Shown: piece after piece, positions 3,573 to 20,493 of the stretch
Layout of the letters: each line of letters opens with the position of its first letter
Numbering within the stretch: the first letter of the stretch is position 1
Virus record (IMG/VR): IMGVR_UViG_3300040801_005227
Coordinates: 1-21,146 of that record
Reading direction: 5' to 3' (one strand)
Source of the DNA: a virus
DNA length: 21,146 bases
Notes under the pieces: model-generated
What the model saw: the letters and a program-made list of their open reading frames with translations, nothing else
Database searches by the model: none
What the model was told of the DNA's origin: nothing
Made by a program: the position numbers and the translations under genes

Positions 3573-6500
3573 TAGTCGGAGATCCTCCACCCTTCGATCT
3601 TGTCTTTAAATGAGCCTTGGCCGTCAAAGTTAGGCCGAATGAATTCGCGGGTGATTCTGGTGACAAAGGTTCGAATCGGTATGTTACTGATTGGATGGTT
3701 GATTTGAAGAATGTCGCCAATTTCATCTTGCAGGTGCGCTGTTTTTTCAAACTTAACCCGTCGTCGCTGGTTTTTGACAACTTGAAGTTCATTATTGGCT
3801 ACCATTTGGCAATGTTCGACTTGGTAAGAGAGCGGGTCATCGAATTCTTCGGTCACAACCAATCCGCCCAGTTCGTCCTGAAAAGCGTAGTCGTTGGCGC
3901 TGGCCTGAAGCATTTCTTTTTCGTGTCCAATCGGACGGGCATAAATGTCGTAGCGGTAAGAAGCGACCGCAGCCAGAGCTTCGATTAAAAAGCTCAAGGC
4001 AATGTTAGTCGCCAAAATAAAAATGTGGCACCAGTGAGGGCCATATACGCCGATGTCGCACCCAATAGCAGCTAAGCCGAAGCCAAGCACAATAGCTGCA
4101 AAGGCAAAAACATACATGGCGCGGTTAGGCCCTTCGAGCTTAACATAAATAAAAGTTTCGCTTGGATCGACGTAAGAGATATATTGGTCCGGCCGGCGGC
4201 CGAATATATCGTCGATAAACCCGAGCAAAGGAGACCAGTCTTCAAGTGATTGCAAAACCTCAAGCCGGGAATTGCGGCATTGCCTGGTTTTGTCGTCGGA
4301 AAAATAGACAGTTATCGTTTCGTTTTTGCTCCACCAGCCCAAAGAACCCGAGACTTGGGTAATGCGCTCCTCGTCCCATAGGACCTCAATGGTTTCTCGG
4401 CTTTCACACCGGACAGTGACCTTATTGATATAGCTGGAATTTGAATCGTCCGGAGAGAAATGCATGATCTTGATGTTGCTTTCACCGTAGTCGTGATCAA
4501 CAGCTCTGTCCATATTGAGCCGTTTGAGAGTCCATTTGCCGTCCTGCCGCCAATAACCGAACAGACCAAAATGAGTATTTAATTCATCAATGATATCTTG
4601 AAGTGTTTCATCGACCCATTGGATATAGACCGGATGATAGGTTGAAATAGTTGTCGGGATCGAATATTCCTCGCTAGTGTAATTGCCAAAATCCTCAAGC
4701 AGGTCGATGTAGATATCATCCGGGTCTTCGGCCTCATATGGAGAGGTTGCCGTCAGTACCATCTCGGGCCACATAGCCCCCTTGTCTTCCGCCCTGACCG
4801 TTACGGTGGGGTGTGAAGTTTTGCTGTAAGACACCGAGACTTCTGTGATAATAAATTTGCCTTGCGGTTGCCAGTAGTTGGTGCCGGAAACCTTTTCACC
4901 CAAATGGACTTCAACCAAACGGCCTTTTTTTAAGACAGCCGAATATGTCGAAGCGTGGTTGGTAGGATCAAACAGGTCTCCACGGGCGATTTGAAATTCC
5001 ATGTAATTGACGCGTTCAATTTCCCAATTGAGAATAACCGGGGTGTCAGCCAAAAGATAATCGGCCAAGTCCGGAGAAAATCCGGCGTTGTCCCATTGGT
5101 GCGAAATTTCTTCAATATCCGTTCGGTAGTAAGTCCAGGTCGACCACATGACGTTGGTAGGGTCATAAACAACAGTGGGATTGTAAGTGCCATAATTTTG
5201 GGTCAGCTTGGCGGTGCCCGCATAAGCGTATCTGCTGTCGCCCTGAAGCGCACCGTCGATGTAGTAGGCCTGATAAATCGACCCAGCCATAGGCACTGCA
5301 AACAAAAAAGCGTCATTGGGTGGAACGTTAACACGATGGCCGGTAAAAAACATTTCACCAACAGTGTCCACAGCGACCATGCCGCAGACCTGATTGTCTG
5401 GGTTTTCGTAGAACCAACCAGGATGGGTGTCATTGTTAAGTAATGACCAGAGGCCGGTGTTTAGATCGTAAATTGCCAACCCATCGGAAGAGCCCATGAC
5501 GATCTTATTGTGGCCGTCGTTGGGATCAGTGTAGACTTCCAAATCCATCAAATAGTAGTCGTCGCGGGTTGAAAAAGTTGGACGGCTGTAAGTGATAGCA
5601 CGGGTGGCCGTGTCGATAATGCACAAGCCGCGATGTTCATCACAGTTTTTATTGGTTGTATATGCAGAGACATTGCCGTAGATTTTACCATTGTAGTAAA
5701 TGGTGTTGTTTAGGCCGATCCAGTGGAAACCTTCGCCATCGTGCCATTCAAAATGTTGGATTAGTGACCCGGTGGACAATGAGCGTAACTGAAGAAAACC
5801 GGCATAATTGGCGTGATAATAACCGTCAAAGTTACCGCCTACGACCATTTTGTCATTATTGGGATCGATATCAAAAGCTTGGCCGTCACCAGACCATGAT
5901 GTGCAGATACTTTGATAATTGCTACCGCTATCAATAAAAATCATTTCCGGCTTGTATAAACCGTCACCGTCCGGAGTGGGGGTCAAATCCATGCTGAAAA
6001 CCATAAAATCCCAGTTTAGATAATATTCAGCAGATCCATAAACATAGAATTTGCCAGCGGACGCATCGACGCGCACGGACATATATTCGCACAGATAACC
6101 CAGACCATAAGGCATTTGAGGAAACGAGCTTGTATCAAAATTTTTTGTGATGAGGTAGGTTGAATTGTCGTCTAAAAAAAGCTCGGTAACGGTTTCGGCT
6201 TGGTCGTTTAAAATGAGAAACCCTTTGCAACTAGAATGGTTGGAAGGAATAACGACATAGCGTCCTTGGCCGCCAACGTTTGTCCACATAATGCTGACCA
6301 TATCGTTCCAAAAATCATTCCACCCGGGAGGAGCATCTTGTTTATAGCAGCGCACGATTGTCCAGGTGTCAACATCGATGACCAGGATTGAATTAAGTGG
6401 TTTGGGACCGCTACTTTGATAAGCGTTTACGCAGAAAAGCAATCGTGAAGACGGATCAAAATGTAAATGCGTTATATGAAGAACACCACTGCCTGCAGAG

Positions 6501-7438
6501 ACTCCAGCGCTTTCACAGTAGTTGTTGGTGTTTTCGTCAAGGCGCAGCACCGTAATCTCTTTATGGAAAACAATACGGACATCATCGTCGATTTTTTCGA
6601 CCGCGTAAGGGGATTTTGCTATCTCGGAAAACCCGACGAAACTGGTAACTGTGTTGGCGTTCGACCATGTGGCACCGTCGTCATCCGTCCAAGCTGAAAA
6701 AATATTCCAACGCTCAGTGTCTTCGACCTTGCTGTCCACATAGTCGAAATACACCCAGAGGTATCCGCTTGTGGCCGCCAAAAAGTTTGGGTTGCTGCGC
6801 TTGCGGTCATAGGTCTCGAGGCCGAAACTGTCCATCGTGGCCGGAGAGGACCAGCCGCCGAAAATTGAGCTGCCAGTGCTGTACATGAAATAATGAGTCG
6901 ATGTCGCCGCTACGGCTTCGAGGCTGAAAGCCATGATAAACGTGCCGTCTGAAAGCGGACCCAGACCAATCGTGTCAACCAACTGTGTTGACTCGGAATA
7001 ATCAGAACCCAGCTGAGTGGGCCCGGATAGCACCGTGCCGGTGTTGTCGATAATCTGGGTATAGATACGACGGGATGAACCGCGATCCTGCAGGATAGCG
7101 ACGCCAAAATTACCGTCATTCAATTGGATGATATCCGCATCAATGATATTGTACAAAGAGTCGAATATTTGAACACTGTTCCATGTTTGCCGTTCAGTGT
7201 CGGTGTAAGACATGAAAAGATCGTTTGATCCATCGGTATCCATGCGATAGATTTCAACCAGGCTGCCATCATCGGCCAATATTAATCCGGCACTGTCTTG
7301 TTCGTAGGAGTAGGTATCGAAAAAATTGCCGTCAAACGGGATCTCTGCCAGCTGGTCTTCGGTAATAATTTTGCAGATCGGATGATGTGAGGTACTGCTA
7401 AGCGCAGCTGCGAGTGTGCTGTTAAGCGTAATGGGCAT
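3572..7438 (-). CDS. Giant tail hub (Tal-like) with fused beta-propellers and a two-helix membrane hairpin
   Basis: A 1288-residue protein. Residues 1-30 look like a hub N-terminus (MPITLNSTLAAALSSTSHHP). Residues ~30-330 are propeller-like, with an Asp-box at 251-258 (TDDDGATW) and a degenerate one ending at Trp86. Residues ~330-760 appear to be a second propeller (VMGSSDGLAIYDLNTGLWS). Residues ~805-1288 are a hub domain (WEIERVNYMEFQIARGD, KGRLVEVHLGE, ETLQDIIDELNTHFGLFGYW), ending in EIGDILQINHP. Two membrane-like helices at ~1108-1127 and ~1139-1161 flank a CDIGVYGPHWCH loop. The role is closure of the tail tip and receptor contact; no sialidase active site is visible, so sugar cleavage is not claimed. 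AAAGGAG precedes the ATG. The hub call is moderate, the propeller fold good. Confidence 0.8.
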   Translation of the reverse strand: MPITLNSTLAAALSSTSHHPICKIITEDQLAEIPFDGNFFDTYSYEQDSAGLILADDGSLVEIYRMDTDGSNDLFMSYTDTERQTWNSVQIFDSLYNIIDADIIQLNDGNFGVAILQDRGSSRRIYTQIIDNTGTVLSGPTQLGSDYSESTQLVDTIGLGPLSDGTFIMAFSLEAVAATSTHYFMYSTGSSIFGGWSSPATMDSFGLETYDRKRSNPNFLAATSGYLWVYFDYVDSKVEDTERWNIFSAWTDDDGATWSNANTVTSFVGFSEIAKSPYAVEKIDDDVRIVFHKEITVLRLDENTNNYCESAGVSAGSGVLHITHLHFDPSSRLLFCVNAYQSSGPKPLNSILVIDVDTWTIVRCYKQDAPPGWNDFWNDMVSIMWTNVGGQGRYVVIPSNHSSCKGFLILNDQAETVTELFLDDNSTYLITKNFDTSSFPQMPYGLGYLCEYMSVRVDASAGKFYVYGSAEYYLNWDFMVFSMDLTPTPDGDGLYKPEMIFIDSGSNYQSICTSWSGDGQAFDIDPNNDKMVVGGNFDGYYHANYAGFLQLRSLSTGSLIQHFEWHDGEGFHWIGLNNTIYYNGKIYGNVSAYTTNKNCDEHRGLCIIDTATRAITYSRPTFSTRDDYYLMDLEVYTDPNDGHNKIVMGSSDGLAIYDLNTGLWSLLNNDTHPGWFYENPDNQVCGMVAVDTVGEMFFTGHRVNVPPNDAFLFAVPMAGSIYQAYYIDGALQGDSRYAYAGTAKLTQNYGTYNPTVVYDPTNVMWSTWTYYRTDIEEISHQWDNAGFSPDLADYLLADTPVILNWEIERVNYMEFQIARGDLFDPTNHASTYSAVLKKGRLVEVHLGEKVSGTNYWQPQGKFIITEVSVSYSKTSHPTVTVRAEDKGAMWPEMVLTATSPYEAEDPDDIYIDLLEDFGNYTSEEYSIPTTISTYHPVYIQWVDETLQDIIDELNTHFGLFGYWRQDGKWTLKRLNMDRAVDHDYGESNIKIMHFSPDDSNSSYINKVTVRCESRETIEVLWDEERITQVSGSLGWWSKNETITVYFSDDKTRQCRNSRLEVLQSLEDWSPLLGFIDDIFGRRPDQYISYVDPSETFIYVKLEGPNRAMYVFAFAAIVLGFGLAAIGCDIGVYGPHWCHIFILATNIALSFLIEALAAVASYRYDIYARPIGHEKEMLQASANDYAFQDELGGLVVTEEFDDPLSYQVEHCQMVANNELQVVKNQRRRVKFEKTAHLQDEIGDILQINHPISNIPIRTFVTRITREFIRPNFDGQGSFKDKIEGWRISD
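3584..3588 (-). promoter_or_regulatory. Ribosome binding site that fixes the start of the 385-residue tip protein
   Basis: The transcript reads GGAGG 11 bases before the ATG at 3572, which overlaps the hub stop (TAATG). A GTG at 3590 is in frame but lies in the ribosome site itself, so it is unlikely to be used. Confidence 0.7.
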
Positions 7439-7449
7439 GAACGGCTCCT

Positions 7450-7806
7450 TTATGCCATGATGATCATCTCTAAGTTGACATCCCGCCGGAACTCAGCCAG
7501 GGCGCTGTTGTCAATAAAGTATTCGCCATTGAGGCTGAGGATTTCCACGGTGTAAGTGTTGCCGCCACCGGTCGTCCAGCTGCAGCTCGAATCAGCAGTC
7601 AAAATTGAGATAAATTGGTTCCATTGGGCCAGGGGCATATAGTCCCAGTACAAGCGGATAACCTTACCTTTAATCGTTGTGCCCCATGAAAAAAATTCCG
7701 CGCCGCCAAGAGTGGGCGCGAAAGTGGTGAGCCGTTCAGTATGTGGCAAAGTCGCCCTCGCCGGATTCATAGCAAAGGTGTAGCCAGCAAGTGTCATCTG
7801 TGCCAT
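7450..7806 (-). CDS. Small distal-tail-like / minor tail protein (118 aa)
   Basis: The ATG follows the tape measure stop directly (TAA-ATG). The 118 residues are beta-rich, with Trp and aromatic residues along strands (FFSWGTTIKGKVIRLYWDYM, LAQWNQFISIL, CSWTTGGGNTYTVEILSLNG) and an ending FRRDVNLEMIIMA. The layout (tape measure, short beta protein, large hub) is the one seen for distal tail (Dit) or lambda gpM-like minor tail proteins that bridge tube and tip. The length fits the gpM-like group better than full Dit proteins. The assignment rests mainly on position. Confidence 0.68.
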   Translation of the reverse strand: MAQMTLAGYTFAMNPARATLPHTERLTTFAPTLGGAEFFSWGTTIKGKVIRLYWDYMPLAQWNQFISILTADSSCSWTTGGGNTYTVEILSLNGEYFIDNSALAEFRRDVNLEMIIMA

Positions 7807-10800
7807 TTATCGCATTTCCTCTCTAATGATTCTCAGAACTGTTGACTCGACCTCGTCTCTCATGCGGTTGGCAGTGTGTTTTGCCACCGGTGCAGTGATT
7901 TGTATGGGAACAGAAACTGAAATCCCCCCCAGCTCGCCGCCCCCCATTTTGTTTTTTGGTACGACATACTCGGGTCCATTTTCTGCTAAATTGTAAGTAG
8001 CGCCTGAATTGAGCCCAATGCCGGTGACAGGCTCATTGAGAAGGCCGCCGGATGCCATGCCGTAAACGACGCCGCTTTTATTGGCGATGGCGCCGGTGGA
8101 CAAGGTTGTCGCTCCGTTGCCGCCCAAGTTAAACAGACTCGACAGTCCGCTACGGATAAATGTGGCAGCATATTCTTTTAAGATATCGTTTAAAATTCCG
8201 GTGGTTACATCTCTTAATTCTTCCAGTATGCCGATGCCAACGTCTTTAAGGTTGTCGAATTCAAATCTCATAAAGGTGAAAAAGCCTTCGTCCCAGGCTT
8301 CGGCAATATTGTCAGCACCTCTTACCCAGGTATTCGATACCCGTTGGGCCAATGTTTGCTGTTCTGCCAGTAAACGGTGTGTGCCGGCCTGCATCCCGCG
8401 GTAGACACCCTCACCGGTGCTTTCATATTCCTGGCCCTCAAGGTATTGAGCTTGCAGTTCATGTTGCTTGGAATACATTTCGCGGTAGGCGCTGACCACA
8501 TCGCCGGTCAAATCAATGCGCAACTGTTTTTCCAGTTCGATCAGTTCCTTTTCTTTTTCGTAATGTTCCTGGCTCATCACATGGGTGCGCTCGTGCATGG
8601 AGCGAAAAGCGTCAAGGGAGGGTGCGATCATTTTCGTCTTAAGGGCCCGCACACGCTGGTCGTAAATTTTGTCAGCGTCATTTGTAGGCATGTTCATATA
8701 ATCGCTAGCTCGCATGCGGTTGAGGCGTTGAAGTTCAAGCTCAAAAAGTCGATCGTTGTTTGGGCTGGTTCCCAGTTCAGTAAAGCTACGGTTTAAGGCG
8801 TCGTATTCGCCTTTGGTGTGGTTTAAGGCTTCATCGAGCTTGTCCAGCTCAGCGGCTAGGCGCGCATAGGCCTCTTCGGCGTCAGTGCCACCCAGTGCAC
8901 GCAGCGTGTTGACTTGAGCCCTGAGAGCATTATTGATTTTTTTAACGTTTGCCTCTGACAGACGGTCAGGGTATTGATCGGTTTTGCTGAAAACATCTTC
9001 CAATACTTTCAAGCGCGGCCGTATTTCAGTGTTTTTGATTTCGGCTTTGCCGTAGCGGTCGATTGCATCGATCATTTCCATAGTCAGGCCGTATTCCTCC
9101 TTGAGATACGGCAGACGTTCTTTTAAATTTTTGATATAGTTGTCGTGCTTGGCCTTTTCATTTTCCCAGAACTTGCCCCCGGTGTAACCGAGTTTGTCGT
9201 AGGCCATTTGAAAGTCGCGCATAGCCGGGCCAAGCAGGTATTGACCGCGCTGGAAATCCATTTGTTCGGTGAAAATGCGCTCGCGTTCTTCTTGTTCCTG
9301 CGGTGGTAAACCCTGCCACTGGTTGCGCAGATTCCACAGCTGAACGTTTGCGTTGCGGTCCTGTTCCTGAAATTGCCCCGGCAGTGGAGTCGGCATGAGC
9401 TTGAAAGCGTACTCGATCGATTTGCTTAACTGATTGGACCATTTAATGGCCTCTTTGTCGGAAACTGGTTTTAGATTTTGCCAGAGGATCTCACCTGGCT
9501 CGGCGTCGGCGGCGGCGGCCAGATTTCGTAGCGTGCGTTCGAACTCGCCCAGCGAGCCGTTGAGTTCATCGATGGTCTGCATGATTCTGGCAACGTAATC
9601 CTTGGTCATCTGCGGCGCATTGTCCCAACCAAACTTGTCGACTTTGCCCGGGCCCCAGTTGTAAGCGGTCAGTGCCTTTTCAAGGTCGCCATATTTGTCG
9701 AGCATTTTGCGCAAATAACCAACACCGCCCATTACGTTTTCTTCAACATCAAAGGCGTTCTTAACACCCATTTCCTTGGCGGTGCCTTCCATTAGTTGCA
9801 TCAGGCCTTTTTCGCCGGATGTGCCAATTGCTCCTGGTTTAAACTGGGATTCTTGCTTGATAACAGCATAGATCACATCGGCGTGGATTTTATAGGCCTG
9901 CGAGGCTTTCGAAACAACTTCATCCAGACCTTCCAAATTATGCATCAGTTGTCCGAAAGACCGATTCGTGTACCGCATCTGATCGGTGTAGGCGCGGGCG
10001 CGATCGGCCATGTTGTCGAAATCGTCGACCCATGCCTGAAGGCGATGCTCGGGGCGGTTAGGCATGAAATTCATTCCCATGCCTTCTTGTGCAATGGGCC
10101 GCTGTGGGCCGTAATCTATATCCGAAGTACCGATTCTCCCGGACAAGATCCCGGTTAACCAGTTGGGTTTGCTGGTCAAATCGCCAAGCGGATTGCCGAC
10201 TTTGAGGCGCGGATCGAATTCACGATAGGACTTGATGACAAATTTGGCGTGTTCAATACTGTGGGCCAATTCCACGCGTTGCTGCTGGACTTCAGAGGCG
10301 ACCTTGTTTACGCTGCTGATTGAGGTCAAAAGGCCGGCATTAACCGCTTCGAAGAGTCGTCTTAGATCTTCGGTCACGCCTCTTAAATTGGTTTCCGACC
10401 AGGTGCGCATGGCCCCGGCAAAGCCTTTTAAAGCCGCATCAAAGGTGCCTTTGCCGGCTTCCTGTTGCCTTTCAATCACATCGGCAATGACTTGCTCAGG
10501 GTTCTGAACGCCTTTTAAGCGCAAGTCCCTGACCGATGAAATAAATTCTAGCGGCTTGATGTAGCCTGTGGTGCCCAGATCACGCGCCAGATCAGAGAGC
10601 CTTTCCATTTGGTCACCGGACAGTTCAGCCTCGAGCTTGAGTTGACTCATGACTTTTTCCATGTCGGTGACAGGCCGGATGATAGCTGCGATGATGCGCG
10701 AGAATTCTTGCCACACGAACAGGGTGGCGGCGATACCACTCATAATGATTGAAAAGCGGCCCAGCTTAGAACCTGCAAAACCGATGCTTTTGGACATCTT

Positions 10801-12750
10801 ATCGACACGCCTGCGGCTTTCACCCATGATTTTAGAGTGTTCTTTCCATTCACGGGTTGCTTGGCTGACTAATTTTTTATCATCGCTCATCATCCTGCCC
10901 ATGATGTCATAGGCGCGTTTGACATCGGACTCTAGTATGCGGTATTGCTTTGAACTTGCCGGGTGTTTTTGAAGAAGATCGTGGTGTTGGCCTATTTGGC
11001 TGTCCATGTTTTTCATGACCCGCATGTACTGGCTGCCTTGTTGAGCGGCTTTTTGCAGCTGTTCTGTGGTCATTTTGATATTGGGATGTAGCCTGTTGAA
11101 AGCGTTGGCAAGCCGCTCGACAGTCTGGGCATTGCTTGAATCAACCGCCGGCCAGAGCCGGTTCCAATCTTTTTCGGTCATCCCGGAGGTTGCAGCGCTT
11201 CTGGCTTTTTCGAGTTTTTGAAGCGCCTGTTCGGCGCGGGCATCCAAGAAACCGCCGTATTTGGCCGCTACACGGTCTTCAGCAGTCATTACTGGTGGTT
11301 TGTCACGCTTTGCCAATCGTTTGGAGCGGGCTGGATGGGATAAAACTTTGTTGAGTTTTGCTTCGGTATGGAGTGCTTCGGCCTGTAAGGCATTGCCGGT
11401 TTCAAACAAATCGTTAAGTTCCCGCTGATTTTTAGGCATGATCTTCGCGGCCTGTTTATCAAGCTCCATGTAGCGTGTCTTTAATTCGAGGTTTTCGAAT
11501 TGCAGCGCGTTTTGGCGTTGAAGGCCTTGTTCGAGTATCGGCTGGTAGTGGGCGATTTGTTTGTGATGGCGTTCGACATCGGCCATGGTAGCCATGTTGA
11601 CAGGTGTGGCTTGCAAAAATTGCTGAGATTTTTGGACCCAGGTATCAGCATCGGCAATCGTGCGGTTGACCTTGGAAAGTTCACGGCCGATTTGAAGCCG
11701 CCGCTGGGAGATGCCAGCCAGTTCTTCGAGTTGCTTTTTGGTGTGCTGGTGACGGTAAGCTTCGTCTGCGTAATTGGCTTTCTTAATTCGTTCGGCGTAT
11801 TTTAATTGATCGCGGTACTCGGAATGGGCCAGCTCTCCATCGGAGCGCAGGCTCTCGTACTCTTTTTTCAATGTGTCGATACGCTTGGCATCGGTTTGAT
11901 CAGTATAATCAAGGGCCCCGGCTCCGGCTTTGTAGCGTTGGGCGGCCCCGCGCCCGGAACCGCGGAACTCTCCGCGCTGTTGCTGGGATTCAAAGGTTTC
12001 ATCGTAGAGACGTTTTAGACGTTTGCCCGCAATTTTTTTTTCAATTTTTTCGTTATTGGCCAGAATCGCTTCGTTCTTGCGTTTGTTCGACTCGACTTCC
12101 TTGCGGTTATCGGCCTCGAGTCGCCGGAAGAAATCGTTTGTTTTACCGCCCTGTAAAGAAGCGTCTGCCTTGGCGTCCGCACGCACCCGTCCGAGATGTT
12201 CATCGTACTTGCGCCCGGCACGTTCAACCATTTTTTCACGGTTGTCGAAAAGATTTTGCCACACGCGCTTTAATTCGTCGGCTTCTTTGATACGATTTTT
12301 ATGCCAATAAGCGGCCATAGCTCGGCCTGTCACCGACTTGGGAACCGGATCTGTTTCGTATTTTTTTATTTGCTTAAGAAGTTGCAGTCGTTTCTGATAG
12401 ATGCTGGCCATTTCCTTGTTGATACGGGCACGGGCAGACTCGACCACATCGGTACGGGTTGCATAGGGCGTTTTGGGCCGTTCATAAAGAAAGCTGCTGG
12501 CCTGACGCCCGGAACCGCCCGCACGGCCCAGCATTTTTAACCGGTGTTCAAGACGGGCCAATTTTGCTTCAGCCTGTCCGAGCCCGGAAGTGTCGATACG
12601 CAGCGCCAACCGTTGCTTGCCCAGTCGTTGCATGCGTTCAATGACGTCCTCGGTCCGTTTAGCTAACCTGACTGTTTCCTTGCGAGCCTTGGTGACGCCA
12701 TTAACAATTCCAGTAGTATCAACGCTTAGGCTTATTTTTGCGTCCGCCAT
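7807..12750 (-). CDS. Tail tape measure protein with lytic transglycosylase (SLT) domain
   Basis: The largest product, 1647 residues, mostly charged helix and coiled coil (~40-650), with a hydrophobic stretch at ~660-690 (FSIIMSGIAATLFVWQEF) and a tape-measure core after it (FISSVRDLRLKGVQNPEQVI). An SLT domain lies at ~950-1056: catalytic Glu967 in AVIKQESQF, GLMQLM at 982-987, AYNWGPG at 1029-1035. The C-terminus is Gly-rich, ending in a charged helix (RDEVESTVLRIIREEMR). It sets tail length and during infection is ejected to open the cell wall. By the usual ~0.15 nm per residue the tail would be up to ~250 nm; this is an estimate. Position after the chaperone is diagnostic. Start ATG at 12750 overlaps the chaperone extension. 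Confidence 0.93.
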   Translation of the reverse strand: MADAKISLSVDTTGIVNGVTKARKETVRLAKRTEDVIERMQRLGKQRLALRIDTSGLGQAEAKLARLEHRLKMLGRAGGSGRQASSFLYERPKTPYATRTDVVESARARINKEMASIYQKRLQLLKQIKKYETDPVPKSVTGRAMAAYWHKNRIKEADELKRVWQNLFDNREKMVERAGRKYDEHLGRVRADAKADASLQGGKTNDFFRRLEADNRKEVESNKRKNEAILANNEKIEKKIAGKRLKRLYDETFESQQQRGEFRGSGRGAAQRYKAGAGALDYTDQTDAKRIDTLKKEYESLRSDGELAHSEYRDQLKYAERIKKANYADEAYRHQHTKKQLEELAGISQRRLQIGRELSKVNRTIADADTWVQKSQQFLQATPVNMATMADVERHHKQIAHYQPILEQGLQRQNALQFENLELKTRYMELDKQAAKIMPKNQRELNDLFETGNALQAEALHTEAKLNKVLSHPARSKRLAKRDKPPVMTAEDRVAAKYGGFLDARAEQALQKLEKARSAATSGMTEKDWNRLWPAVDSSNAQTVERLANAFNRLHPNIKMTTEQLQKAAQQGSQYMRVMKNMDSQIGQHHDLLQKHPASSKQYRILESDVKRAYDIMGRMMSDDKKLVSQATREWKEHSKIMGESRRRVDKMSKSIGFAGSKLGRFSIIMSGIAATLFVWQEFSRIIAAIIRPVTDMEKVMSQLKLEAELSGDQMERLSDLARDLGTTGYIKPLEFISSVRDLRLKGVQNPEQVIADVIERQQEAGKGTFDAALKGFAGAMRTWSETNLRGVTEDLRRLFEAVNAGLLTSISSVNKVASEVQQQRVELAHSIEHAKFVIKSYREFDPRLKVGNPLGDLTSKPNWLTGILSGRIGTSDIDYGPQRPIAQEGMGMNFMPNRPEHRLQAWVDDFDNMADRARAYTDQMRYTNRSFGQLMHNLEGLDEVVSKASQAYKIHADVIYAVIKQESQFKPGAIGTSGEKGLMQLMEGTAKEMGVKNAFDVEENVMGGVGYLRKMLDKYGDLEKALTAYNWGPGKVDKFGWDNAPQMTKDYVARIMQTIDELNGSLGEFERTLRNLAAAADAEPGEILWQNLKPVSDKEAIKWSNQLSKSIEYAFKLMPTPLPGQFQEQDRNANVQLWNLRNQWQGLPPQEQEERERIFTEQMDFQRGQYLLGPAMRDFQMAYDKLGYTGGKFWENEKAKHDNYIKNLKERLPYLKEEYGLTMEMIDAIDRYGKAEIKNTEIRPRLKVLEDVFSKTDQYPDRLSEANVKKINNALRAQVNTLRALGGTDAEEAYARLAAELDKLDEALNHTKGEYDALNRSFTELGTSPNNDRLFELELQRLNRMRASDYMNMPTNDADKIYDQRVRALKTKMIAPSLDAFRSMHERTHVMSQEHYEKEKELIELEKQLRIDLTGDVVSAYREMYSKQHELQAQYLEGQEYESTGEGVYRGMQAGTHRLLAEQQTLAQRVSNTWVRGADNIAEAWDEGFFTFMRFEFDNLKDVGIGILEELRDVTTGILNDILKEYAATFIRSGLSSLFNLGGNGATTLSTGAIANKSGVVYGMASGGLLNEPVTGIGLNSGATYNLAENGPEYVVPKNKMGGGELGGISVSVPIQITAPVAKHTANRMRDEVESTVLRIIREEMR

Positions 12751-16621: not shown

Positions 16622-16963
16622 TTAAAGTTCCTTAATTTTCATAGAAATGTCTTTTTCCCATTTATGGGGTGGTGTCAAATCGGTTACGCCATAGAAGGTT
16701 ATTTTATAAGGCGTATTGGTATCATCGCCACCGCGAATCAACGCTTGCAATGATGTGCTGGTCATACCCGTAGAGGTGCCGTTGATCAGTGTCATGGTTG
16801 TCAAATCGACAATGGCTGCCGTGCAGGTTGCGCCGCTGGCATTTGTAGCGACAATATAACAGCTGCCTAAGGCCAATTTTTCACCGGCATCCATGTTTTT
16901 ACCGAAGTCGACATCGATCCTAAATTCTTCCCATGATTGCTTAGTGAAATTATCAAGGGCCAT
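16622..16963 (-). CDS. Small beta-sandwich virion protein (113 aa), Ig-like fold inferred
   Basis: MALDNFTKQSWEEFRIDVDF opens a 113-residue protein with alternating strands (CYIVATNASGATCTAAIVDL) and an ending YKITFYGVTDLTPPHKWEKDISMKIKEL. This layout resembles small phage proteins encoded near the neck genes that look like single Ig-like domains with a conserved tryptophan near the C-terminus (…KWE.D..MK.KE). No enzyme motif is present. Start ATG overlaps the upstream stop (TAATG), with GAGGTAG as the likely ribosome site. A capsid or neck accessory protein is inferred. Confidence 0.78.
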   Translation of the reverse strand: MALDNFTKQSWEEFRIDVDFGKNMDAGEKLALGSCYIVATNASGATCTAAIVDLTTMTLINGTSTGMTSTSLQALIRGGDDTNTPYKITFYGVTDLTPPHKWEKDISMKIKEL

Positions 16964-17142
16964 TATTCTACCTCATCTTCTTCAAAGCTGCGTTGTGTCA
17001 AAGATTTGACAAACGAAAGCGTTTTAATTTCTTTGGCAAAACTGCGTGCAACAACAGGTTCTTCGTAAGAAAAAGTGCGTTCTGCGTATTCGAAAGAACG
17101 TGTAATTATTTCTTTTGTGAATGTCGCCAGTGATTCGGTCAT
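16963..17142 (-). CDS. Microprotein B (59 aa) with 18-residue RSF repeats
   Basis: The ATG at 17142 overlaps the stop of microprotein A and its TAA overlaps the ATG of the next gene (TAATG). RSF occurs at residues 15, 33 and 51, exactly 18 residues apart. Within the first two units T follows at +8 and S-[YF] at +10/+11, so the protein is close to three copies of one short unit, the last truncated. Eighteen residues equals five helical turns, so the Phe residues could line one face of a helix. Charged throughout, acidic at the C-terminus (EEDEVE). Its end resembles the end of microprotein A. Function unknown. Confidence 0.7.
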   Translation of the reverse strand: MTESLATFTKEIITRSFEYAERTFSYEEPVVARSFAKEIKTLSFVKSLTQRSFEEDEVE

Positions 17143-17315
17143 CGCGGTTGCGGCCTGTCTTCAGTAAACGAGCGATTTAAAAATGATTTGACAAAAGATT
17201 TTGCGCTACGAAAAACGATTGATAAAAACCCCACACGCCCTACGACCCCCTTGGTCATTAATGAAACACCGGCATTGGATGCCCCGGCGCGGCCGTTGGT
17301 TAATCTAGGGATCAT
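17139..17315 (-). CDS. Microprotein A (58 aa), basic, paired with the next gene
   Basis: The ATG at 17315 overlaps the stop of the 456-residue gene (ATGA), and the stop overlaps the next start in the same way, so translation is very likely coupled. The product is MIPRLTNGRAGASNAG…, strongly basic, with a hydrophobic middle (GVVGRVGFLSIVF) and the C-terminal SFVKSFLNRSFTED at residues 40-53. That segment matches microprotein B at 10 of 14 positions without gaps. It is below usual gene-calling length, but without it and B there would be an otherwise empty ~350-base gap in a tightly packed operon. Function unknown; a small decoration, scaffold or membrane-active peptide are all possible. Confidence 0.7.
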   Translation of the reverse strand: MIPRLTNGRAGASNAGVSLMTKGVVGRVGFLSIVFRSAKSFVKSFLNRSFTEDRPQPR

Positions 17316-18682
17316 TGCTTTACCACCTGATAGGTTTCCATCTGGTCATTGTTCCATGTAACGGTTACCAGATAAGTTGCCAGTACATTTGCGGTGCTGC
17401 CTACAGAGGCTTCATCGGTATATGTCCTGATGCGGGCGCTGGTCAGAAAATTCTGGTTTTGATAGATTTGATAACTGCATTGATCCTGGTACATATTTTC
17501 TTGCGACATGCCCAGCATCCGCGCTATCTGGGTATTGTTCTGGCTCAGCTGCCAGCCGAGCGAGCCAATGACCTGGTGTTCGGCAATAGGCTCGTCCATG
17601 ATATGATCGGCAATGTGATTGGGGTTGTTGACGTTGTCGACGTTAACCGTTCCTCCGGTCGAGTAATCTTCCACTAAGCCGGTCCCAATGATCGTTATGT
17701 ACCCGGCGGTTATCGTCGAATCCAGGTACACCCATCCCGCGTTCAGGCTCGCGTTGGCCTGATCGCTCGCCCCAGTTTTGTTTTCCCACTTTACATATCC
17801 GTTGAAGTTTTGCATTACTAACGACTGACCGGCTCCGCCTAAGTTGATTGTTGGAGGATTTCCCAGGCGCGAGCCCGCCCAGCAATCGAGGAAGTAAGCG
17901 TCCGCGCCGCCGTCTAATGATATTTCGCCTGCCAAAACGCATAATTCTACATACCCCGATATATAATTAAGGTCATAGATGAGGCAATCCTTGACTTTGC
18001 TGTTGCCGTCCAAGGTGCCGGTAAGAGAACACTCGTAAAATTCACAATTGTTAACATTGGCGCTAGGTTCAACAGTGATTGTGGTCCTGCTCATTGATTC
18101 GCCAATAAAAGTAAACTGTGTGAAATCAAAACTGTTGCCGAGTGTAATGTCACCCAAAATATAAAAGACCGTGAAACCCCTGGTTTGAGCAATCAACAAT
18201 GCGTCGGACATATTGTTGACCGGCCGTTGAGCCGTGCCAACGGGAAAAAGTGTGCCGCTATAAACAGAGCCTTCATCAACCGTTACGCCACCGTTAAACG
18301 ATGCGAACTCAATTGCCGCATTGGTAATCAAGCCCGCAGCGTTATTGACGATCAAAGAAACTTGGTTGGCGACCTTGACGTCGGAAATGTTGTGGTTCGC
18401 ACCGACACAGTTAACAGTGTATTGTCCATCTTCGAATTGAACCGTATATCCGTTAATGACCTCGACGATACGGGCATAGGTTAACCCTGAAAGCGTGACT
18501 TCGGTATTGTGGTTGTGCGTATCATCGGCCCAAATACCTTCTTCATCGTCTTGAAGCGCATGTAGTTGAAGTCGGAACCAGTTCAAATCCAACTCACGCA
18601 CTTCCGGAGAAGTCTGTATTAATGTCAGGTCTGCCTTGGGGACAAAAATTACTTTAGTGCCCCAATGGATCGAAATGGCCAT
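17312..18682 (-). CDS. Beta-helix virion protein (456 aa) with conserved 'IHWGTKVIFVPKADL' N-terminus
   Basis: Residues ~1-140 form a compact N-terminal module: MAISIHWGTKVIFVPKADL, then an acidic linker (LQDDEEGIWADDTHNHNTEV) and ARIVEVINGYTVQFEDGQY. This resembles a set of hypothetical proteins I recall from uncultured phages (memory, not a search). Residues ~146-350 are a likely right-handed beta-helix with repeated short strands (FYILGDITLG, CEFYECSLTGTLDGNSKVKDCLIYDL). The last ~100 residues contain DHIMDEPIAEHQVIGSLGW and a terminal beta-rich segment. The stop overlaps the next start (ATGA). Position before the neck genes suggests a capsid-attached fibre or decoration protein; function is unproven. 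Confidence 0.82.
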   Translation of the reverse strand: MAISIHWGTKVIFVPKADLTLIQTSPEVRELDLNWFRLQLHALQDDEEGIWADDTHNHNTEVTLSGLTYARIVEVINGYTVQFEDGQYTVNCVGANHNISDVKVANQVSLIVNNAAGLITNAAIEFASFNGGVTVDEGSVYSGTLFPVGTAQRPVNNMSDALLIAQTRGFTVFYILGDITLGNSFDFTQFTFIGESMSRTTITVEPSANVNNCEFYECSLTGTLDGNSKVKDCLIYDLNYISGYVELCVLAGEISLDGGADAYFLDCWAGSRLGNPPTINLGGAGQSLVMQNFNGYVKWENKTGASDQANASLNAGWVYLDSTITAGYITIIGTGLVEDYSTGGTVNVDNVNNPNHIADHIMDEPIAEHQVIGSLGWQLSQNNTQIARMLGMSQENMYQDQCSYQIYQNQNFLTSARIRTYTDEASVGSTANVLATYLVTVTWNNDQMETYQVVKQ

Positions 18683-18685
18683 GGT

Positions 18686-18952
18686 TTATACTTTCTGCAG
18701 CGCCTCAAGCTCTTTGATTCTGGCTCTGAGTTGCTGGTTTTCAAGCAAGTATTGATTGGTATCACTGTTCGAACGGTTAAGTGCTTGTTGAATAATTACC
18801 TTTTGATTGACCTTTTCGATTTCCCATTGTGCTTTTTGACTTTCTAAAACGAGAATTGTTTTTTCAAGTGTGAGAATTTTCTTTTCCAGTTCAGGCACGG
18901 CTTGTGCCAGTGATTGATAACGTTTTTGCCAATCGTTTTGTGTTTGATTCAC
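18686..18952 (-). CDS. Small coiled-coil protein (88 aa)
   Basis: Eighty-eight residues, nearly all predicted helix. Residues ~15-52 carry a leucine/isoleucine heptad pattern (LAQAVPELEKKILTLEKTIL), with a second helix at ~65-88 ending in LRARIKELEALQKV. There is no signal peptide, membrane segment or catalytic motif. It lies between two beta-helix-type proteins with gaps of 11 bases upstream and 3 bases downstream, so it is probably translated with them. A trimerisation or assembly partner for those fibres is a reasonable inference; I do not recognise the family. Start ATG at 18952. Confidence 0.75.
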   Translation of the reverse strand: MNQTQNDWQKRYQSLAQAVPELEKKILTLEKTILVLESQKAQWEIEKVNQKVIIQQALNRSNSDTNQYLLENQQLRARIKELEALQKV

Positions 18953-18963
18953 AGAAATTCCTT

Positions 18964-20493
18964 TTAATCTTGAATGAGAAGAACATTGAATGTCACTCCG
19001 GACGAAGAATCGATCGTGCCGGAAATCTCATAAGTTTTATAATAAGGAGGGTTGCCAGAAGCCTTTCTAACCCAACCTGAAACAGGCTGGTCAGATGCCA
19101 GTGAGCGCGTGTCCGACACATTGCCGGATGCATCGGTAAGCTCGTTGAAAATGACGGTGCCTTGTGTTAGCGGCCCGCCAGAATCGCAGATCAAATAAAC
19201 CCTTGCACCTTGGATGTTGGTTCTACCAACAATTGCCTTGACGTTTACCTGTGTTGTGACCGGATTGCTGACCACATCGAATGTGCCGCCGGCCGAGGTG
19301 CAGCCTGTCGCTGATATGTTGGTGCCATTTTGCGAATTGATAGTCAGTATGCCAGCGCTGCCAGCCCAATACAATGCAAAGCTTGTCGTGTTATCTGGAT
19401 CAGAAAAAAACCAGTTATCCATCGTAAAGGTCGTGACTGCCGATGCGACGTAGACAGCATAAGAGCCATTGTTTTCGTAACCGTCGAACTGAAGATCGGT
19501 ACATTTGTCTGATTCGGCCTCAAGGTTGACCAGCAACGCGCCGTAAGTTGGTTCATTGGTATTGATAAATTTGCAGTTTGTGACCGTGGCTCCATTGGTA
19601 TCCATGTAACCGGATTCAACGAAGTTTGCGCCTGAAATTACCTGACCGGATGTAAGATCGATCTGAGAGGCGCGAGTCAAACCGCCGCCGGTCATATTGA
19701 ACGCATTGGCACCGGTGGCAGAGAAAGCAAAGTTGGCCGTACCTTCTGCGGCAATCAGTGTGTTCTCTAAGGTCAGTGTCCCGGTCACGGTCATCTTGTA
19801 AGCCGAAATGCCGTTTAATGTATCTTTGAACGTCAAGCTTTCATTTTTGGATATCATCGATGTGCCGGCTAATCTTAGGTTGCCCTGAGAAAAGATCTGG
19901 CCGGAATAGTTTTCGAGGATGCCGTATTTGTTTGAAGAATTATTTTCATCGATAGCGGTTGCTTCGGCAAAAAGCGCATCGTTGGCGGTGGTGCCGGAGA
20001 CAGTGAAACCCGAGCCGTAGTACATCGCATCAATCCAGTTATTGATAACCGAACGGATGTTTCCCGAAGCTGAATTATCAACTATGACACGCAAGACAGA
20101 AAAATTAGCGGGGACAAAAGTGCCGGTTGGAGTGCCGCCATTATTGACATCAACGACAAATGGACGGAAAGCACCATCTACTGCGGGAAGGGACGATGTG
20201 GCTAATGTATAGCTGCGATAATTGCCCGAACTACTTTGAAGCTCGAGTTTAACACTGGTGTAATAAAAAGACAAATCTGATTTCATCCACATCATGAACA
20301 GATTGTCTGTCCCTGAAATGTCGCTAGATAGTGTTAACGTACCAGTTTCAGAGGCGTTTTTGGAAACAAGCCACGACTCAGAATTGACGCTTTGCACCGC
20401 AACGTTGTATGCATCGGCACCGTCAGTTCCAGACCAGTTCCCTTCGTTGTCGTTATTTGTGTGCAAACGCATCCCTGCCAAAGAAACAGCCAT
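18964..20493 (-). CDS. Beta-solenoid-like virion protein (509 aa), probable head-fibre or decoration protein
   Basis: A 509-residue protein with no signal peptide. Residues ~20-170 look like a beta-sandwich (carbohydrate-binding-like). Residues ~185-410 are a run of short strands with stacked small and hydrophobic residues (LRLAGTSMISKNESLTFKD, MTVTGTLTLENTLIAAEGT), typical of a right-handed beta-helix. Residues ~415-509 form an Ig-like ending (VGRTNIQGARVYLICDSGG … TDASGNVSDTRSL). No catalytic motif stands out, so I infer a structural role. ATG at 20493 follows a G-rich ribosome site. It sits between another beta-rich protein and an 88-residue coiled coil, upstream of the neck genes, which suggests a head-proximal fibre. 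A depolymerase with a beta-helix fold cannot be excluded from sequence alone. Confidence 0.82.
   Translation of the reverse strand: MAVSLAGMRLHTNNDNEGNWSGTDGADAYNVAVQSVNSESWLVSKNASETGTLTLSSDISGTDNLFMMWMKSDLSFYYTSVKLELQSSSGNYRSYTLATSSLPAVDGAFRPFVVDVNNGGTPTGTFVPANFSVLRVIVDNSASGNIRSVINNWIDAMYYGSGFTVSGTTANDALFAEATAIDENNSSNKYGILENYSGQIFSQGNLRLAGTSMISKNESLTFKDTLNGISAYKMTVTGTLTLENTLIAAEGTANFAFSATGANAFNMTGGGLTRASQIDLTSGQVISGANFVESGYMDTNGATVTNCKFINTNEPTYGALLVNLEAESDKCTDLQFDGYENNGSYAVYVASAVTTFTMDNWFFSDPDNTTSFALYWAGSAGILTINSQNGTNISATGCTSAGGTFDVVSNPVTTQVNVKAIVGRTNIQGARVYLICDSGGPLTQGTVIFNELTDASGNVSDTRSLASDQPVSGWVRKASGNPPYYKTYEISGTIDSSSGVTFNVLLIQD

Follow-up and report, generated by a model that had tools for sequence, protein, structure and literature searches.

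A putative plug or penetration hairpin inserted into the tail hub protein of a siphophage

Introduction

How siphophages pass their DNA across the outer membrane is still unsettled, and hydrophobic helices of the tail tip are the leading candidates for this step. Such helices, and the proposal that they form a channel in the outer membrane, are known from lambda gpI and from gene transfer agents (GTAs). The locus described here raises the question whether a single hub chain can carry an element of this kind by itself. It belongs to the virus record IMGVR_UViG_3300040801_005227, whose complete length of 21,146 nucleotides is the window analysed throughout. With both helices in one hub chain, at a site that is new and in a locus that has no gpI gene, it would offer a compact natural case for testing whether membrane passage can be achieved by the hub alone.

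The tail gene cluster and the hub protein

The minus strand of the window encodes a siphophage cluster with head–tail adaptor, head closure and tail terminator proteins, a tail tube of the Phage_tube_2 type, tail assembly chaperones, a tape measure of 1647 residues bearing an SLT domain, a protein of 118 residues, the hub of 1288 residues and fibre-type proteins downstream (Table 1). The 118-residue protein shows no family match in Pfam or PHROG and is probably a distal tail protein, as its position suggests; taken as such, it gives the gene order tape measure, distal tail protein, hub of the phrog_1887-type siphophage hubs. The host presumably possesses an outer membrane, because phages with related tail tubes have mostly Gram-negative hosts. 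Upstream of the head–tail genes (window positions 16622–20493) there are three proteins of 113, 456 and 509 residues without PHROG match, the two larger of which may be structural or fibre-like.

Table 1. Features of the hub and tape measure region (window positions; aa, residues of the respective protein)
Feature	Position	Strand	Basis
Tail hub protein, 1288 aa	3572..7438	-	phrog_1887 'tail protein', E 1.8e-8; downstream of tape measure
Hub fold part 2, aa 1195-1265, hdIV-like	3644..3856	-	phrog_1887 positions 571-641, E 4.8e-5
Insertion carrying the hairpin, aa 1018-1194	3857..4387	-	177 residues where the profile has 24 positions between the phrog_1887 stretches
Hydrophobic helix 2, aa 1134-1159, one buried acid (E1153)	3962..4039	-	Kyte-Doolittle 2.07; AlphaFold2 helix
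Loop CDIGVYGPHWCH, aa 1127-1138, with C1127, H1135, C1137, H1138	4025..4060	-	translation
Hydrophobic helix 1, aa 1106-1126	4061..4123	-	Kyte-Doolittle 2.32; AlphaFold2 helix
Hub fold part 1, aa 840-1017 (end of hdI to hdIII and strand INKVTVRC)	4388..4921	-	phrog_1887 positions 368-546
Large N-terminal insertion, aa about 45-785, beta-propeller/BNR-like	5084..7306	-	Pfam BNR_2 at aa 195-265
118-aa protein, probably distal tail (gpM/Dit-like)	7450..7806	-	position between tape measure and hub
Tape measure, SLT transglycosylase domain at aa 945-1039	7807..12750	-	Pfam SLT, E 2.8e-25
Hydrophobic tape measure segment, aa about 666-690, MSGIAATLFVxQ	10681..10755	-	same motif at L025, L040, L041

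The profile of the gp27-like siphophage hubs (phrog_1887) matches the core of the hub protein in two separate stretches. A second model, constructed from phrog_1887-type hubs of bacterial genomes, aligns to residues 941–1014, weakly and with scores that are low but sensible, and this alignment ends at the strand INKVTVRC, which corresponds to NAVFVRG in the phrog_1887-type members. The domain names hdI to hdIV used here are assigned provisionally after published descriptions of hubs. The N-terminal half is dominated by a large insertion that appears to be placed inside the first hub domain (hdI), close to its start. Its match to Pfam BNR_2 (E 3.7e-7) lies just under the gathering score, and with this half the hub may have a receptor module of its own that binds glycans.

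Relatives of the whole hub were searched by tblastn in 50,697 phage records (E up to 10), in a viral contig collection with four hub stretches and one DNA pattern, in a genome contig collection and, for phages whose tail tubes are related, in their loci and records; none was found in these collections, which may omit near relatives of the window. A sequence search of the PDB with the hub gave no match either.

A hydrophobic hairpin within an insertion of the hub fold

All conclusions on hydrophobicity rest on Kyte–Doolittle means over 19 residues. The two maxima of the hub are reached at residues 1107–1125 (2.32) and 1139–1157 (2.07), and the next best value anywhere in the protein is 1.15. 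Of 2000 shuffled versions of the hub, 50 reached its single best value, and none had a pair so strong within 60 residues (0/2000). With hydrophobic moments of 0.05 and 0.15 both helices are uniformly hydrophobic and not amphipathic. The original prediction, which had placed two hydrophobic helices at about residues 1108–1161 (positions 3960–4125) with paired Cys and His in the loop between them, was correct within a few residues, and the two cysteines and two histidines are indeed present.

AlphaFold2 was run twice on the single sequence without alignment, and the models are poor overall (mean pLDDT 35 and 48). Their most confident part is in both runs the helix–turn–helix (pLDDT of the hairpin about 55–77), with helices at 1105–1128 and 1134–1164 in one run and at 1106–1126 and 1134–1159 in the other. 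In these models the second helix starts at about residue 1134, within the loop as delimited in Table 1. A fold search with a model of 186 residues yielded a best E of 0.75, as expected at a pLDDT of 48.

The position of this pair within the hub fold follows from the comparison with phrog_1887. Between the two matching stretches there are about 150 extra residues, and the site of this insertion is predicted to lie after hdIII and before hdIV, near the C-terminus of the hub. Among 17 open reading frames picked at phrog_1887-type loci, 16 contain no 19-mer with a Kyte–Doolittle mean of at least 1.6, the sole exception being a frame that was picked from the wrong strand. As judged from these alignments, ordinary soluble phrog_1887 hubs are devoid of both the insertion and a membrane-like segment. 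A comparison of hub homologues for presence or absence of the insert had been proposed together with the original prediction, and it identifies the hairpin as an insertion that is missing from the ordinary soluble members; the opposite outcome, a buried core common to all of them, is not what phrog_1887 gives. This protein with hub fold thus has an insertion, about 150 residues long, with two adjacent membrane-grade helices that are missing from ordinary soluble hubs.

A chimeric origin or a recent insertion was considered and rejected, since GC3 of the hairpin (0.55) is nearly that of the remainder of the hub gene (0.53), GC is uniform too and the gene contains no repeats.

Comparison with known tail tips

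In lambda the helices H1 and H2 of gpI are unresolved once the tail has opened, and they were proposed to form a channel in the outer membrane (PMC11101478). Used as a control, gpI showed segments starting at residues 105 and 138 (both 1.78), while gpJ showed nothing above 1.0. The likeness to the hub presented here consists of a hydrophobic helix pair in a tail-tip protein with nearly identical spacing of the helix starts (33 residues in gpI, 32 here), and the hydrophobicity here is equal or higher; the pair occurs in one copy per hub chain. In contrast, gpI forms a protein of its own, which carries a beta-grasp domain at its N-terminus and sits beside gpL and gpJ, whereas here the hairpin is part of the hub chain itself. 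Moreover, gpI is encoded ahead of hdII and hdIII, either by its own gene or in the N-terminus of J, but the present hairpin (residues 1107–1161) follows the hdIII-like stretch.

The low-confidence model of the insertion shows the order strand–strand–helix–strand–strand, which hints at the beta-grasp of gpI, and by eye and strand order a homologous domain was suspected. This was rejected by shuffle statistics and profile comparison: residues 1015–1106 scored against a beta-grasp model no better than many of their own permutations (150 of 1000 shuffles equal or better), and the profile of the insertion could not be aligned to gpI, with no sequence similarity detected. The hairpin may therefore be called gpI-like in its presumed action, but it is not a gpI.

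In the megatron proteins of RcGTA and R4C an iris or penetration domain closes the channel and was proposed to pierce the outer membrane. Here too the hydrophobic element is part of the hub polypeptide, but it lies near the C-terminus, whereas that of the megatrons is found at the extreme N-terminus (residues 1–46 in RcGTA), where each chain has a single resolved iris helix. The hub did not match the megatron families phrog_4271 and phrog_1101. A wider survey of lambda/GTA-type hubs from phages with related tail tubes revealed a segment with a Kyte–Doolittle mean of at least 1.6 within the first 230 residues in 15 of 16 cases; these hubs are a non-random set with open frames taken from stop to stop, and their class was assigned by PHROG matches for most of them and by annotation or a beta-grasp match for three (L011, L015, L041). 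The original prediction had started from the view that hubs are normally soluble. This view holds for the phrog_1887 type, but as a general premise it fails, since the surveyed lambda/GTA-type hubs and lambda gpI do carry membrane elements. In the lambda-type hubs of eight loci (L005, L010, L013, L020, L041, L075, L088, L108) J has a gpI-like unit, i.e. a beta-grasp followed by one or more hydrophobic segments, fused to its N-terminal end.

The hub pb3 of T5 resembles the present protein in being a single chain with an inserted plug that closes the tube. On refolding, this plug gives rise to legs by which the hub is anchored in the membrane, whereas the proposed outer-membrane channel is a stretch of 46 hydrophobic residues, forming two helices, in the tape measure (PMC10038345). 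The two helices thus belong in T5 to the tape measure pb2, and its hub plug turns into beta-hairpin legs. Common to lambda, RcGTA and T5 is an element located ahead of hdII and hdIII, be it as a separate gene, at the N-terminus or as an early insertion; the site between hdIII and hdIV is used in none of them. The phrog_1887 hubs, which are soluble and gp27-like, match in sequence on both flanks of the insertion, but about 24 positions without a membrane-like segment take the place of the 177 residues. By domain order the hub of mycobacteriophage Douge is similar, as the available part of its description places an extra domain (369–486) just before the second stretch of the core beta-fold. There this domain binds fibres, and no hydrophobic hairpin is described in that part. 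What is new in the present hub, as far as sequence comparison reaches, is the combination of a single-chain hub, the hdIII–hdIV insertion site and the lack of detectable homology to gpI.

Possible function of the hairpin

A membrane mechanism triggered by the receptor, as formulated in the original prediction, is plausible, and earlier proposals of this kind exist for lambda gpI, RcGTA and R4C. By analogy we suggest that the hairpin probably acts as a plug or penetration element of the tail tip in the manner of H1 and H2 of gpI, and we hold this reading with some reservation. In the closed virion three hairpins, one per hub chain, would lie within the hub trimer or at its tip, where they would be shielded from water and help to close the channel. 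On opening they would be released and enter a membrane, the outer rather than the inner one, because published models assign hub-borne elements to the outer membrane. All these parts are our inference: that the hub is a trimer, that the hairpins are shielded and later released, that they insert, and into which membrane. In favour of a plug or penetration element counts that the alignment with phrog_1887 places the pair in an insertion and hence outside the core of the fold, and also that the list of open reading frames contains no gpI-, gpK- or gpL-like genes between tape measure and hub. Against it stand the missing sequence similarity to gpI, a site unlike that in lambda, T5 and RcGTA, the acidic residue E1153 in the second helix and the poor quality of the models outside the hairpin. 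In addition, the collections searched contained no hub homologue that would attest to conservation of the hairpin.

Soluble trimers are also able to bury such helices, which equally speaks against a role in penetration. The main rival is a static bundle, in which the six helices of three hubs pack together or onto the coiled coil at the C-terminus of the tape measure. They would then serve as a trimerisation core or a structural plug and never meet a membrane. Residues E1153 and N1145 of the second helix would fit such a packed arrangement, and in the mycobacteriophages Claus and Corndog C-terminal helices of the hub plug the lumen, with no membrane role stated; in phages related to Douge, too, C-terminal helices occupy the lumen. 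The uniform hydrophobicity of both helices, however, is not what a soluble bundle with one face turned to water would show, although a completely buried hairpin could look equally hydrophobic. On balance we regard the static bundle as unlikely.

If the hairpin does act as a penetration element, its site bears on the evolution of tail tips. Independent gain of a gpI-like membrane-penetrating hairpin by a single-chain siphophage hub, in the strand loop of hdII that lies between hdIII and hdIV, is an idea that we put forward tentatively and with less than even confidence. If true, plug and penetration modules would be mobile solutions that were inserted at differing points of one conserved hub fold, and a hairpin at this new site would also suggest more than one evolutionary origin of the element.

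The tape measure has to be considered in this context as well. Related tape measures (L025, L040, L041), although divergent elsewhere, strongly conserve the hydrophobic motif MSGIAATLFVxQ, and the present one retains it. This would suit a hairpin that only tethers the opened tip without forming a pore while the tape measure provides the channel, and in just this manner the T5 hub is held in the outer membrane by its legs, next to pb2 as proposed channel (PMC10038345). The T5 legs are, however, beta-hairpins with short hydrophobic tips, and two helices of membrane length exceed what an anchor needs; we consider a mere anchor improbable. Even less credence can be given to the idea that passage across the inner membrane is the work of the hub hairpin and not of the tape measure. 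The predicted helices would be long enough to span a bilayer, but the structures of T5 and lambda show a hub that stays at the cell surface (PMC10038345, PMC11101478). The original prediction, which had suggested the inner membrane as a possible target and the usual job of the tape measure as a possible role of the hairpin, is supported in neither respect, as published models of hub-borne elements point to the outer membrane and the tape measure keeps its own motif. It is more likely that the hairpin would act alongside the tape measure and not replace it. The SLT domain of the latter (window positions 9634–9918) is likely to provide a peptidoglycan-opening activity.
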